DNA of 63,049 nucleotides from a bacterium TMED217. Its GTDB lineage: Bacteria > Fidelibacterota > Marinisomatia > Marinisomatales > UBA1611. A program made the position numbers and the translations under genes. The notes beneath the pieces are model-generated. The model did no database searches and was not told the origin of the DNA. It worked only from the letters and a program-made list of their open reading frames with translations. The stretch spans positions 1-63,049 of the forward strand of contig NHJO01000007.1 in NCBI GenBank assembly GCA_002169695.1, given 5' to 3'. Shown here one piece after another: positions 55,105 through 62,405 of the stretch. Numbering within the stretch: position 1 is the stretch's first letter; the number at the start of each line of letters is the position of its first letter.

Positions 55105-57495
55105 TTAATCGCATTTTGACCAGCCACAACTTTGGCAGGTCAAACATCCAGCCTCATTTACAACACTTCTACTATCACAGCTCTTACACATCATTAAATT
55201 TGTTTTTGTCTCTGATTTATTTTTTTTGTCAGTTTCCATTGTAATTAATAATTTTTTATCTTGTTCGTTATCAGGATTTTGATTTTTCTCATGTAAATAG
55301 TCATCGAGAGCTTTGCCTATAGCGTCTGGTGTTGATAGAATAAGTCTCCCATCTTCCCATGTTGGGTTTGGGCCAGAAATCCCTTTCAGTTGTCGTACAA
55401 TTGACTGTGGATTAACACCTGACCTTAACGCTAGGGATATAAGTCTGCTGATAGCCTCTGATTGTGCCGCGGCATTTCCGCCTGCTTTACCAATTGTTGT
55501 AAACACTTCACAAAGTCCTTTTTCATCTTCATTGATTGTAATATAAAGAGTGCCCTCTCCAGTTTTTATTCTTCTAGTAAGTCCTTGTGTTTGTGTTGGT
55601 CTTATTCTTGGCTGTTTTTCTTCGACAATTTTTTTAACGGAATCTAAGTTTTGTTCTGAATCTTTATCTTTTTCATCATTTGTAATTAAGATTCCTTCTC
55701 TACTTCCTTCGCGATAAACGGTTATACCTTTTAATCCATTATCATATGCGGTCATATAAATATCAGCTACTGTTTCTACTGGTATATCTTTACGAAGATT
55801 AACCGTAGATGAGATGGATGAATCTATATATTTCTGTAGTGTTCCTTGCATTTTTACTCTGAAAAATGGGTCTATATTATGTGCTGTTGTAACATAATCT
55901 GGTAAATCCTCATCTGTTTTGAATAGTTCTTTAATAATAGGATGATATACTGTGTATTGTTCAAATTCTTTACCATAACCTCCGTCATTCTTTTTTACCA
56001 TTCTATTATATGATGTTGCGAATATTGGTTCAATTCCAGATGTAACTCTAGCAACAATTGCGCCACTTCCGGTAGGGGCAACTGTAGTAAGAGTGGAGTT
56101 TCTAATACCGTTATTTTTGATTTTATTTTTGATTGTTTTAGGAAGTGTCTTTATAAATTTACTTTTATTATATCCTTTCCAATCAAAATTTGGGAATTGA
56201 CCTTTTTCCTTTGCTAGTTCTATACTAGTCTCATATGCGGTGTCTCTAAAGATAGTCATAATTTGATCTATCGTTTGCACTGCATCTTCACTATCATATT
56301 TTATTCCCATACGAACTAGCATATCACCTAATCCAAGTATCCCTAATCCTACTCTTCTATCATTAGTTGCATTCTTTTTTTGGTCTTCGAGTGCATGCCT
56401 CTCCATGTTATAATCAACCACATTATCTAAAAACCTAGTACCTATTTCTACGGTATTTTTGAATTCTTCTATCATAAAATTATGATTATCGTCAACGAAA
56501 CGTTCTAAATTAATAGCTCCAAGATTACAACAGCCACCATCAGGCAGTGGTTGTTCAGCGCAAGGATTTGTAGAAACTAATGGAGAACAATACTCTGCGT
56601 TATGATAGTCAGTCATTGTATCCCAAAATAAAAGGCCTGGTTCAGCACTCGCATGAGCACTATTGATTATTTTATTCCATAAATCTTTTGCTTTGATGGT
56701 TTCATAAACTGTACCATCAAAGACTAGGTCAAAATCTGTATCCTTTTTTACAGCATCCATGAATTTGTGAGTTAATAGGACAGAGATATTTGAATATTTG
56801 ACCATATTAACATCATTCATTTTTATCTTAATAAATTTTTCTATATCTGGGTGGTCTATTCTTAGTGTTTGCATATTCGCACCTCTGCGTCCATGCTGTG
56901 CAATTGTATTTGTATTCTCACTAAATAGATTCATAAATCCAGTTGGGCCACATGAGTCACCGCCTGTACCATTAATAGCATCACCTGATGGGCGAAGAAG
57001 AGAGAGGTCGTGGCCACACCCTCCACCATATTTGTATGTTAAAGCTTCTTCAATAATTGTATTATAGATTGATTTAATTGAATCATCCTTTACTGCAACC
57101 ACATAACAATTATTTAGTGTTGTTGTTATGTCTTCACGCCCCGCTCCATGCATAATTCTACCACCGGGCACAAATTTGAAATTTTCAAGGATTGAATAAA
57201 ATTTTTCTTCCCATTTTTCTTTACTACTTTTATTTTTTTCAACACTAGCTAGTGCCTTAGCTTGTCTTTTCCACATCTCGTGTGGGTGCTTTTCATTAGG
57301 CGCTAAGTATTTCTGTTTGAGTACGTCTGAACCTAGAGTGTCATCTGTATAGTAATTTTCTATATCATATGGATCTATTTTATCTTCTGGTTCTTGATTA
57401 TCTCTATTTAGATTGAGTAAGGGTTTGATTATTTTTTCGACTGACTCAGTTCCGTCTTCGCCAAGTGGTAAGTTTAATTCAATTGCTTCTGCCAT
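55105..57495 (-). CDS. nrdJ: Adenosylcobalamin-dependent ribonucleotide reductase (class II)
   Basis: NrdJ makes deoxyribonucleotides with a coenzyme-B12 radical, with or without oxygen. The 796-residue protein shows GGGCGHDLS and NTIAQHGRRGANMQ. It also has STNPCAEQPLPDGGCCNLGAINL in parts (active-site cysteine and radical-transfer region) and TTVAPTGSGAIVA. A C-terminal extension has a four-cysteine zinc-ribbon-like end (CKSCDSR, CLTCQSC). The start ATG 57495 follows GATGTAA. It needs the cofactor made with the PduO-type enzyme at 2951. A near-consensus promoter lies about 105 bases upstream. Confidence 0.95.
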   Translation of the reverse strand: MAEAIELNLPLGEDGTESVEKIIKPLLNLNRDNQEPEDKIDPYDIENYYTDDTLGSDVLKQKYLAPNEKHPHEMWKRQAKALASVEKNKSSKEKWEEKFYSILENFKFVPGGRIMHGAGREDITTTLNNCYVVAVKDDSIKSIYNTIIEEALTYKYGGGCGHDLSLLRPSGDAINGTGGDSCGPTGFMNLFSENTNTIAQHGRRGANMQTLRIDHPDIEKFIKIKMNDVNMVKYSNISVLLTHKFMDAVKKDTDFDLVFDGTVYETIKAKDLWNKIINSAHASAEPGLLFWDTMTDYHNAEYCSPLVSTNPCAEQPLPDGGCCNLGAINLERFVDDNHNFMIEEFKNTVEIGTRFLDNVVDYNMERHALEDQKKNATNDRRVGLGILGLGDMLVRMGIKYDSEDAVQTIDQIMTIFRDTAYETSIELAKEKGQFPNFDWKGYNKSKFIKTLPKTIKNKIKNNGIRNSTLTTVAPTGSGAIVARVTSGIEPIFATSYNRMVKKNDGGYGKEFEQYTVYHPIIKELFKTDEDLPDYVTTAHNIDPFFRVKMQGTLQKYIDSSISSTVNLRKDIPVETVADIYMTAYDNGLKGITVYREGSREGILITNDEKDKDSEQNLDSVKKIVEEKQPRIRPTQTQGLTRRIKTGEGTLYITINEDEKGLCEVFTTIGKAGGNAAAQSEAISRLISLALRSGVNPQSIVRQLKGISGPNPTWEDGRLILSTPDAIGKALDDYLHEKNQNPDNEQDKKLLITMETDKKNKSETKTNLMMCKSCDSRSVVNEAGCLTCQSCGWSKCD

Positions 57496-60700: not shown

Positions 60701-62263
60701 AACTTTGATTGGCCAGGAAATAATAATAAACTTTTTAAATCAAAATCTGCTGATGGTAAATGGCGGCATATTATGTTTGATAGTGATTTTGGATTTGAAC
60801 GATGGACAGATTTGGTAATTGGATATATTGGTTCTTATGAAAATTATAATATGCTTGATCATTCATATGGAGATGGAAATATATTTAATAATCCTACTTG
60901 GGCCACTTCTATTTTTACTTCTTTTTTAGATAATCCAGGGTTTAGACAACAATTTATTAATACATATTGCGATAGGATCAATACAACCTATAGTACGGAA
61001 CATACACTATATCTAATGGATAGTCTCAAAACAATTATAGAACCTTATGTATTAGATCATATTAACCGCTATGGTCCAAATATTTATGATTCTTATACTC
61101 CAAATAATATTTCTCAATACAACTCAGCTATTCAGCTTATGACAAATTTTGCAAGTTATAGACCGGATAATGCTAGGAATGAGATGGTGGAGATTTTTGA
61201 TCTTGATGGGCCAAGTAATAATATTTCAGTATATACAAATGATATGGAAATGGGTCATGTTAGATTAAACACTTTAAATATTAATAAACAAGGATGGTCT
61301 GGTAAGTATTTTTCAGATGTACCAATTACAATAAAAGCTATTCCGAAATTTGGATATGAATTCTCTCACTGGTCTGGTTTGAGTTCTTTTGAAGACAGTG
61401 TTATACTATATCTTGATGAACCAATCAATATTATTGCTAATTTTATGGAAACGACCAATCAATACCAGAATCTTATTACAATCAATGAGATTAACTATAA
61501 CTCGGATGATAATTTTGATTCTGGAGACTGGATAGAATTATATAATTATTCTGCTCAGATTATAAATCTATCGGGATGGCGTTTTCTTGATGAAGATGAT
61601 TCACATGTATATGCTTTTAATGATAGTGTAACATTGGAAGCAGGTGGTTATTTAGTCCTTTGCCAAGATAGTACTAGTTTTTCAAATCTCTACACAGAAG
61701 TAAATAATTTTATAGGAGATTTAGGCTTTGGTTTTTCTGGCGGTGGGGAGGTACTTCGCCTATTGGATAGTTCAGGAGTTCTTGTAGATTTAGTAGAGTA
61801 TGATGATTCTGATCCATGGCCATCAGAGCCAGATGGAAATGGAGCAACATTAGAATTAATAAATCCTGAGCTTGATAATAGTCAGGCCGCTAGTTGGTCA
61901 TCATCAATTTCTAGCCATGGAACTCCAGGTACGATTAATTCTACTTTTAGTTCTTTGGCAGCTCAAGATAATAACCTTCTACCAACAGTATTTGAATTAT
62001 ATCAAAACTACCCCAATCCATTTAATCCATTAACCAGTATTAAATATGATCTACCAAAGGATGAACATACATTTATTGCTGTGTTTGACATTATGGGAAG
62101 ACATGTAAAAACATTGGTGGATAATAATCAAAGTGCTGGATATAAAACTATAAAATGGGATGCTACAAATACTCTGGGTAAACGCGTCGCTGCCGGTATG
62201 TATATTTATCAAATTAAAGCAGGTGCATTTAATGATTCTAAGAAAATGGTCTTGTTAAAATAA
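57743..62263 (+). CDS. Secreted multidomain CotH / lamin-tail protein with T9SS-type sorting tail
   Basis: A 1506-residue exported protein begins with a signal peptide (to about 18). In order I see a lamin-tail domain (about 20-85) and a beta-galactosidase-type jelly roll (about 90-275). A GDGICC-containing domain (from about 280) is split by an inserted jelly-roll-like segment (about 360-520). A second lamin-tail half (about 565-640) and a chitobiase C-terminal-like YYTTDGSKPN segment (about 665) follow. Then come a CotH kinase-like domain (about 790-1100, with FDSDFGFE near 1012), a short InlB-like repeat and another lamin tail (about 1240-1370). The tail (FELYQNYPNPFNP onward) is the sorting signal common in FCB bacteria. 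It is probably surface-anchored or released; its substrate is unknown. Confidence 0.88.
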   Translation: MKSKIILGLLLIAGISHPQELIINESMSKNISAVFDEDGSSPDWIEIYNKHNDSLDMFNYYLSDDRDQLNQWRFPNGMLSPNEHLLVFASDKDRSLWPKGDWVPVINFGANWRYKPGSINIPTQWNTIDYDDAGWFIGPSSIGYGDGDDMTSIEPVISIFMRKTFQIDNIDNIVHGLLHMDYDDGFVAYINGNEIIRENLGISGSEVLFDQQAETNVEAKIYQGLKPEKFLIEDVQDYLIQGDNVLALQVHNASENLTDLTALPILSFFYTNPPLPNETTEIKIRINTDNYPSETSWSLEGIGGEGYFIGGEVSGSMTIPNYSYEWSYSVPQGDYQFTIMDTWGDGICCEDGIPIEVYNNDFESDGGWSVWPTDINSGNWNQTQGEGHNDSYKSLELYGSTSTGYVAFWQEVGVVTGASHYVEVFAKHNNDNPMLPGQSAYAKIEFWGWGFFGPYIISEQITNTIDNSSEQDIWHKLSASAVAPEGALNTHVVVVYNNPSGANNGSVFFDNVTYNTNVHSSDPTFYSPGNYSIFIDGSQIINGGFFTDIHSDTMNTLNFFTDLLDFQDPYLHTNFKISSNGETIYLSDQGSNIIDSLFVPSMEKNLSYGYQNDGDGAFVLFSEPTPESSNDASQGYFGYTSEPVFSDSGGFKENYFNLFLMSETEDATIYYTTDGSKPNTNSNVYNNFISINNALLTSGTQTPDDYGLSFNPTYNGIIIRAIAIAPDHVQSRVITHSYIFDQVNTTLPIISIAIAPNDLWNPNIGIHVAGNSFYPWYPYYGSNFWEDWEKEAHIEFFEPGGEIGFKQNLGMKIFGGWSRAEAQKSFSFFARSVYGKGEIDYKLFPDSDIDSYETFILRAHGQDNVMFRDGFHTSLASENGVGVQDYRPAVVYVNGEFWGIQNIREKVNEHYIETHYGIDPDNLDLLSTISSTPDPELVHGSTEDYIELKQFISNNDLSIQSNYEYAASQYDVDNLIEYHIAQIFVMNFDWPGNNNKLFKSKSADGKWRHIMFDSDFGFERWTDLVIGYIGSYENYNMLDHSYGDGNIFNNPTWATSIFTSFLDNPGFRQQFINTYCDRINTTYSTEHTLYLMDSLKTIIEPYVLDHINRYGPNIYDSYTPNNISQYNSAIQLMTNFASYRPDNARNEMVEIFDLDGPSNNISVYTNDMEMGHVRLNTLNINKQGWSGKYFSDVPITIKAIPKFGYEFSHWSGLSSFEDSVILYLDEPINIIANFMETTNQYQNLITINEINYNSDDNFDSGDWIELYNYSAQIINLSGWRFLDEDDSHVYAFNDSVTLEAGGYLVLCQDSTSFSNLYTEVNNFIGDLGFGFSGGGEVLRLLDSSGVLVDLVEYDDSDPWPSEPDGNGATLELINPELDNSQAASWSSSISSHGTPGTINSTFSSLAAQDNNLLPTVFELYQNYPNPFNPLTSIKYDLPKDEHTFIAVFDIMGRHVKTLVDNNQSAGYKTIKWDATNTLGKRVAAGMYIYQIKAGAFNDSKKMVLLK

Positions 62264-62273
62264 ATATATTTTT

Positions 62274-62346
62274 GCGGGTGTAGCTTAGTTGATAGAGCAT
62301 CAGCTTCCCAAGCTGGAGGTCGTGGGTTTGAATCCCGTTGTCCGCT
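62274..62346 (+). tRNA. tRNA-Gly (anticodon CCC)
   Basis: The 73-nt cloverleaf folds with acceptor GCGGGTG/TGTCCGC (three G-U pairs), D stem GCTT/GAGC, anticodon stem TCAGC/GCTGG around the loop TTCCCAA, a five-base variable loop and T stem GTGGG/CCCGT. The anticodon is CCC and the discriminator base is T, as expected for glycine. CCA is not encoded. The D loop reads AGTTGATA and the T loop TTTGAAT, so the usual G19 and C56 are A and T here. Confidence 0.95.
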
Positions 62347-62357
62347 CTATAAGATTT

Positions 62358-62405
62358 ATTAGGTCGATTTTTAGAAGTGTTTAATTTTTTGTGAGTAGAC
62401 CTAAT
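62358..62405. repeat. Inverted repeat after tRNA-Gly
   Basis: ATTAGGTC (62358-62365) and GACCTAAT (62398-62405) are perfect 8-bp arms separated by 32 bases. No T run follows, so it is not a typical terminator. It may fold in the tRNA 3' trailer. Confidence 0.5.

Follow-up and report, generated by a model that had tools for sequence, protein, structure and literature searches.

The question raised by this locus is why a bacterial tRNA-Gly(CCC) gene carries A19 and U56 in its elbow in place of the canonical G19-C56. The gene is the only tRNA gene in the window, the 63,049-nucleotide stretch of DNA that was analysed, which has a G+C content of 31.6%. The original prediction took the canonical pair to be near-universal and regarded the change as compensating and suggestive of selection on the elbow rather than decay. 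The most probable reading (about 0.7) is that the gene encodes an optional tRNA which would be drifting under AT mutation pressure with its 19-56 pairing kept; its product would be an ordinary elongator tRNA-Gly(CCC) that reads GGG.

ARAGORN calls tRNA-Gly(ccc) on the plus strand at 62274-62347, and Rfam family RF00005 matches 62274-62346 with 57.7 bits where the gathering score is 29, which places the gene in the tRNA family. The anticodon CCC is accompanied by U33, A37 and U73, as expected for tRNA-Gly(CCC). The pattern for A19-U56 tRNAs has one match in the window and none in 100 shuffles; this match, ARAGORN and Rfam together confirm the predicted A19 and U56. All 21 stem pairs are standard and seven of these are G-U (5-68, 6-67, 7-66, 13-22, 27-43, 49-65 and 50-64), in agreement with the prediction of sound stems with several G-U pairs. 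Judged from the bases alone, a Watson-Crick 19-56 pair can form beside the usual G18 and U55; the anticodon loop is also of the usual kind, as is pair 53-61. In the available extracts of a review, C56-G19 is a conserved elbow contact and TruB substrates share the motif 53-GUUYRANYC-61 (PMC7912444); positions 53-61 of the window tRNA read GUUUGAAUC, which fits this motif. The tRNA is presumably expressed, charged and used in decoding.

Table 1. Features of the window around the tRNA-Gly(CCC) gene
Feature	Position	Strand	Remarks
Ribonucleotide reductase (RNR) gene	55105..57495	-	Window ORF; orthologue adjoins CCC tRNA in sister species G006
CotH kinase / lamin-tail / sorting-domain protein gene, 1506 aa	57743..62263	+	Ends 10 bases before the tRNA gene
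tRNA-Gly(CCC) gene	62274..62346	+	ARAGORN, Rfam RF00005, sequence; discriminator U73; CCA not encoded
D loop AGTTGATA	62287..62294	+	G18 and A19; A19 is base 62292
Anticodon CCC	62307..62309	+	ARAGORN
T loop TTTGAAT	62327..62333	+	U56 is base 62329

The pair is not confined to this locus. The A19-U56 pattern, which covers only tRNAs with an 8-base D loop and a 5-base variable loop and was checked on the window itself before the genome, viral and phylum scans, is found in at least 119 stretches of a bacterial and archaeal genome collection. A19-U56 recurs in many ordinary bacterial tRNAs, an outcome that the original prediction had itself named as evidence against it; the pair is neither rare nor a new elbow type. 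Among the matches listed, 116 were extended to full length (three are cut by locus ends); the stem thresholds are passed by all 116, and in 114 no stem pair is missing. With the pattern shifted by one extra N between C25 and position 32 as a spacing control, there is no match in 245 genomes, including that of the window, and there are eight viral stretches, none of which matches the correctly spaced pattern when extended. No report of a natural A19-U56 pair in bacteria was recognised among the papers listed by searches of the open PMC literature.

Glycine tRNAs make up 85 of the 116 listed matches (73 UCC, 11 GCC, 1 CCC), a make-up that may be biased. The others are Ala-CGC (18), Pro-UGG (4), Thr-AGU, Thr-UGU and Ala-UGC (2 each), and Lys-UUU, Pro-CGG and Thr-GGU (1 each). 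As far as taxa can be taken from the 80 of 119 loci with titles, the UCC loci belong to Bacteroidia (Bacteroides, Prevotella, Alistipes, Tannerella, Marinilabiliaceae, Prolixibacteraceae and others), and the non-UCC loci include Clostridia, Opitutae, Alphaproteobacteria, Saccharibacteria, Oligoflexia and one Pacearchaeota archaeon. The listed UCC genes mostly lie in the usual cluster, with tRNA-Tyr or tRNA-Thr within 1 kb in 70 of 73 cases and both in 48.

Viral contigs contain at least 120 A19-U56 stretches; among the matches listed, 115 of 122 extended ones pass the thresholds. The well-formed viral tRNAs are above all Thr-UGU (36 of 115 among the matches listed). The archaeal case is a tRNA-Thr(GGU) on the minus strand of a Pacearchaeota contig (L109, 2185-2238). 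The extracts of PMC7912444 describe 2'-O-methylcytidine at position 56 as a hallmark of archaeal tRNAs; with A19-U56, position 56 of this tRNA is U and not the hallmark base.

In the phylum of the host, the picture is different. In the scan of related genomes proposed with the original prediction, one genome of 244 has A19-U56 in a tRNA of the window type, and one of 149 has U56 whatever the base at 19; in both cases this is the window's own genome. The A19-U56 pairs of Bacteroidia and of the window are consequently not inherited in common, since the rest of the sampled phylum is without the pair.

Where the pair is common, its two sides change together. The Gly(UCC) covariation pattern allowed all four combinations of A or G at 19 with C or U at 56. 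In class Bacteroidia it gives 61 matches in 55 of 119 genomes (54 G19-C56, 7 A19-U56, 0 mixed). For the order of Bacteroides there are 81 matches, from 65 of 119 genomes (43 G19-C56, 38 A19-U56, 0 mixed); the other 64 and 54 genomes have no match to the pattern. Five A19-U56 rows (G245, G301 twice, G376 twice) are present in both samples, which leaves 137 distinct matches: 97 G19-C56, 40 A19-U56 and no mixed state. The split was counted by eye from the 61 and 81 rows and agrees with the genome tallies (55 and 65); the rows are related by descent, and Fisher values make the independent evidence look stronger than it is. In 25 genomes chosen for A19-U56, all 34 U56 tRNAs carry A19, with G19 allowed. 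Typing of 243 of 356 tRNAs at the 119 genome loci gives 122 G-C, 121 A-U and no other state, and typing of 390 of 760 tRNAs at 128 viral loci gives 252 G-C, 129 A-U, 2 U-A, 1 C-G and 6 non-pairing; nearly all of these loci were picked for A19-U56, so that the proportions mean little. Positions 19 and 56 covary, and the compensation in the window gene reflects a need for the 19-56 pair. The window gene belongs to this recurrent type, with a complete cloverleaf and a covarying pair.

The same swap has been engineered into tRNAs in the laboratory. In the available extracts on mitochondrial tRNA-Ser(UGA), serylation is lost when the 19-56 pair is broken and returns with A19:U56 or C19:G56 (PMC10412605); this functional mutant, together with the absence of mixed states among the 137 Gly(UCC) matches, bears out the claim that the change is compensating and still Watson-Crick. 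It has also been made in Thermus pre-tRNA-Gly, which AtPRORP3 cleaves at 1.78 per min (7.7) with A19/U56 and at 1.67 per min (4.8) when unchanged; the bracketed values appear from the flattened table of the extract to be KM in nM (PMC5039416). C56U alone (1.81 per min, 6.4) is cleaved like wild type, so this assay is no test of pairing; with other substrates in the same extract, C56U alone falls to 22% and G19A alone still gives 85% (PMC5039416). C56 is a main determinant of m5U54 2-thiolation in thermophiles according to the extracts of PMC7912444, and is thus not always replaceable. A T-box paper (PMC6197855) was set aside as evidence, since the C56U in its available text is in T-box RNA and not in tRNA.

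The locus itself can be compared with that of a sister species, G006. There, the run rplM, rpsI, rpsB, tsf, pyrH and frr (from reading of translations) precedes RNR and tRNA, and the orthologous CCC tRNA follows 221 bases from the RNR start codon. The window ORFs match this gene block in size and order, and RNR is 86% identical. In the window, the CotH-kinase/lamin-tail/sorting-domain gene lies between RNR and the tRNA; it is absent there in G006. The sorting domain (PF18962) in its product scores 26.8 bits, just below the cut-off of 27. No tRNA is found beyond the RNR start in the fetched flanks of G002 and G003 (about 1.5 kb) and G001 (shorter); the RNR match in G004 is partial and thus uninformative on a flanking tRNA. 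An inverted repeat, ATTAGGTC...GACCTAAT, with a 32-base loop lies just 3' of the tRNA at 62358-62405. It has no T run after it and is absent from the terminator scan output.

The syntenic G006 gene resembles the window gene in anticodon, D-loop length and U73, and differs in having G19-C56 and four fewer G-U pairs. The two genes differ at 9 of 72 aligned positions. By comparison, 2 of 448 positions differ over six further tRNAs common to both genomes and paired by anticodon (Arg-TCT, Asp, Phe, Arg-CCT, Thr-CGT and Ser-GGA; Fisher p 5e-7). The CCC gene is consequently the fastest-changing of the seven tRNAs that can be compared. The Met, Asn and two Leu tRNAs have no counterpart among the 15 of 19 G006 tRNA matches that were fetched and typed, and a second Phe gene was left out because its 21 differences show that it is not an ortholog. 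At eight of the nine changed positions, G006 agrees with a tRNA-Gly(UCC) from a different family of the order (the exception is position 59), which places those changes on the window's side. A19-U56 in the window gene is derived, the syntenic G006 gene having G19-C56.

Read from G006 to the window, C-to-T or G-to-A accounts for six of the nine changes: through four of them a G-C stem pair has become G-U, and the other two make 19-56 A-U. Two further changes compensate each other at pair 52-62. When the nine changes are dealt out at random, A19-U56 arises in 1.0% of 200,000 trials, which leaves room for selection on the elbow. No stem pair is broken in 29% of the trials, so the intact stems say little about whether the gene still functions and were dropped as proof that it does.

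The stems, and not the elbow, set the window gene apart. Its cloverleaf has an energy of -14.2 kcal/mol with 7 G-U pairs, compared to -26.9 with 3 G-U pairs in G006, and the unconstrained minimum-energy fold of the transcript, computed without base modifications, is not a cloverleaf. In a second evaluation the window tRNA has -13.0 and 11 other host tRNAs (one of which, L037, may be contamination) have -21.7 to -31.0; it is the weakest-folded of the 12 found. Among the A19-U56 tRNAs listed, those that are fully paired (114 genome and 88 viral, 202 in all) range from -35.5 to -23.4 kcal/mol in genomes and from -34.0 to -15.6 in viral contigs, with at most 3 and 4 G-U pairs respectively; none is as weak as the window tRNA. 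The tRNA-Gly(UCC) of Bacteroides oleiciplenus (L081) has the same D loop AGTTGATA and a TTTGA T loop; unlike the window gene, Bacteroidia A19-U56 tRNA-Gly genes have anticodon UCC and strong stems, and are common in their order. The Oligoflexia tRNA-Gly(CCC) (L079) shares both anticodon and A19-U56 with the window gene, but has 1 G-U pair and a cloverleaf of -31.1 kcal/mol. Such weak stems relative to other A19-U56 tRNAs favour relaxed constraint over a special elbow. Selection on the elbow rather than decay therefore holds in one respect, that the pair is kept; for a gene that is the fastest-changing of seven and the weakest-folded of 12, relaxed constraint is the better fit.

The host genome, a draft of 27 contigs that is 64% complete, has 12 tRNA matches. 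One is the second tRNA-Phe (L037 / L055), on the minus strand of contig C11 at bases 750-821. It has D loop AGTAGTA, T loop TGCGATT, an encoded CCA and G at 55, with A at 18 if numbering runs back from A21. It differs from the G006 tRNA-Phe at 21 positions; the canonical tRNA-Phe of the host is identical to that of G006. Neighbouring genes, from reading of translations, are infA, hisD, murA, dcd, rnpA, yidD and yidC, in an order which we take to be possibly alphaproteobacterial; because of these genes and a G+C content of 28.5%, C11 is suspected to have entered the bin from another organism, possibly an alphaproteobacterium.

A tRNA-Gly(UCC) should also read GGG by wobble, which would make the CCC tRNA optional; this would explain its fast evolution in the window lineage. 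The CCC pattern has matches in 12 of the 33 genomes of the family and in 2 of the 7 of the genus. No second CCC gene, which the original prediction had counted as contrary evidence, is found in the 64%-complete host genome. Among the seven genus genomes, G002, G003 and G005 have a true tRNA-Gly(UCC); there is no UCC match in the host genome (64% complete), G006, G004 or G001, since the lone UCC-pattern rows in G006 and G001 are not tRNA-like strings. With no UCC match in the host genome, the redundancy of the CCC tRNA there is putative. The AT-ward changes would then have turned four G-C stem pairs into G-U and, on both sides, the 19-56 G-C into A-U; with both sides changed, the contact between D loop and T loop would stay Watson-Crick and the L shape would be kept. 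AT mutation pressure is the probable driver.

The gene itself may descend from an old gene of UCC type through a switch of anticodon, possibly as a replacement. The window and G006 genes resemble the UCC gene found elsewhere in the order, in families other than their own (84% at best for the window gene); compared with the order-type UCC gene L003, the G006 gene has 5 differences in 73 and the window gene 12. Among the family Gly loci typed (L044-L054, L350, L360-L362, L365-L367, L371), UCC genes and other CCC genes have bodies unlike the window and G006 genes. A phage origin is not supported: the best phage match, at 82.2% identity, falls short of G006 at 88%.

The main rival is that the gene is an early pseudogene, unneeded, which just happens to read as a tRNA still and whose A19-U56 pair is coincidental. 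Very fast change, the weak cloverleaf, an unconstrained fold of another shape and the patchy distribution of CCC genes all fit this, as does the gene for a secreted protein between RNR and the tRNA, which ends so close upstream. The nearest plus-strand promoter-like site upstream ends at 62125 and there is no terminator-like site after the tRNA; the scan carries little weight, since its 38 promoter-like sites are close to the number in shuffled sequence (32.4, sd 5.7). Against decay stand the 21 intact stem pairs, anticodon loop and U73, the change of pair 52-62 on both sides, and the match at 19-56 that random placement so seldom gives. A pseudogene is unlikely. It is also unlikely that A19-U56 is an overlooked, recurrently selected second elbow state, one that bacteria, archaea and phages would favour in tRNA-Gly and in certain other tRNAs of four-codon boxes, and at which the window gene would be an independent recent arrival.

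An adaptive role of the pair at this locus is improbable. A looser elbow might tune the handling of tRNA-Gly by EF-Tu, the ribosome, RNase P or modification enzymes, and the pair may act likewise in Bacteroidales, whose tRNA-Gly(UCC) genes commonly carry it. The glycine share of the cellular matches listed, the 38 of 81 Gly(UCC) genes with A19-U56 in the order of Bacteroides and the usual cluster around the listed UCC genes are consistent with this. However, the glycine share is biased by the restriction to 8-base D loops and to the matches listed, the titled UCC matches come from one class, and the window gene has weak stems, unlike the A19-U56 tRNAs of Bacteroidia. The available extracts of PMC7912444, PMC5039416, PMC6197855 and PMC10412605 describe no function specific to A-U over G-C.

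An assembly or binning error is very improbable: the draft state of the genome and the end of the contig 703 bases from the tRNA would allow one, but the window contains no N, G006 has this gene block, with RNR at its end, next to its own CCC tRNA (which also led to rejection of a chimeric window), and two matching errors at partner positions are unlikely. Staphylococcal cell-wall tRNA-Gly genes have altered D and T loops in which the usual elbow bases and the contact are lost. The window tRNA, in contrast, keeps G18 and a complementary, Watson-Crick 19-56, and a non-translational tRNA-Gly of this type was rejected.

With drift of an optional tRNA as the preferred reading, the lesson of the locus is modest: an optional tRNA drifts, and its elbow pair drifts as a pair. 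The recurrence elsewhere means that a highly conserved elbow pair has a working alternative in seemingly housekeeping tRNAs of many members of a major bacterial order. Filters and reviews which treat G19-C56 as obligatory should allow A19-U56.
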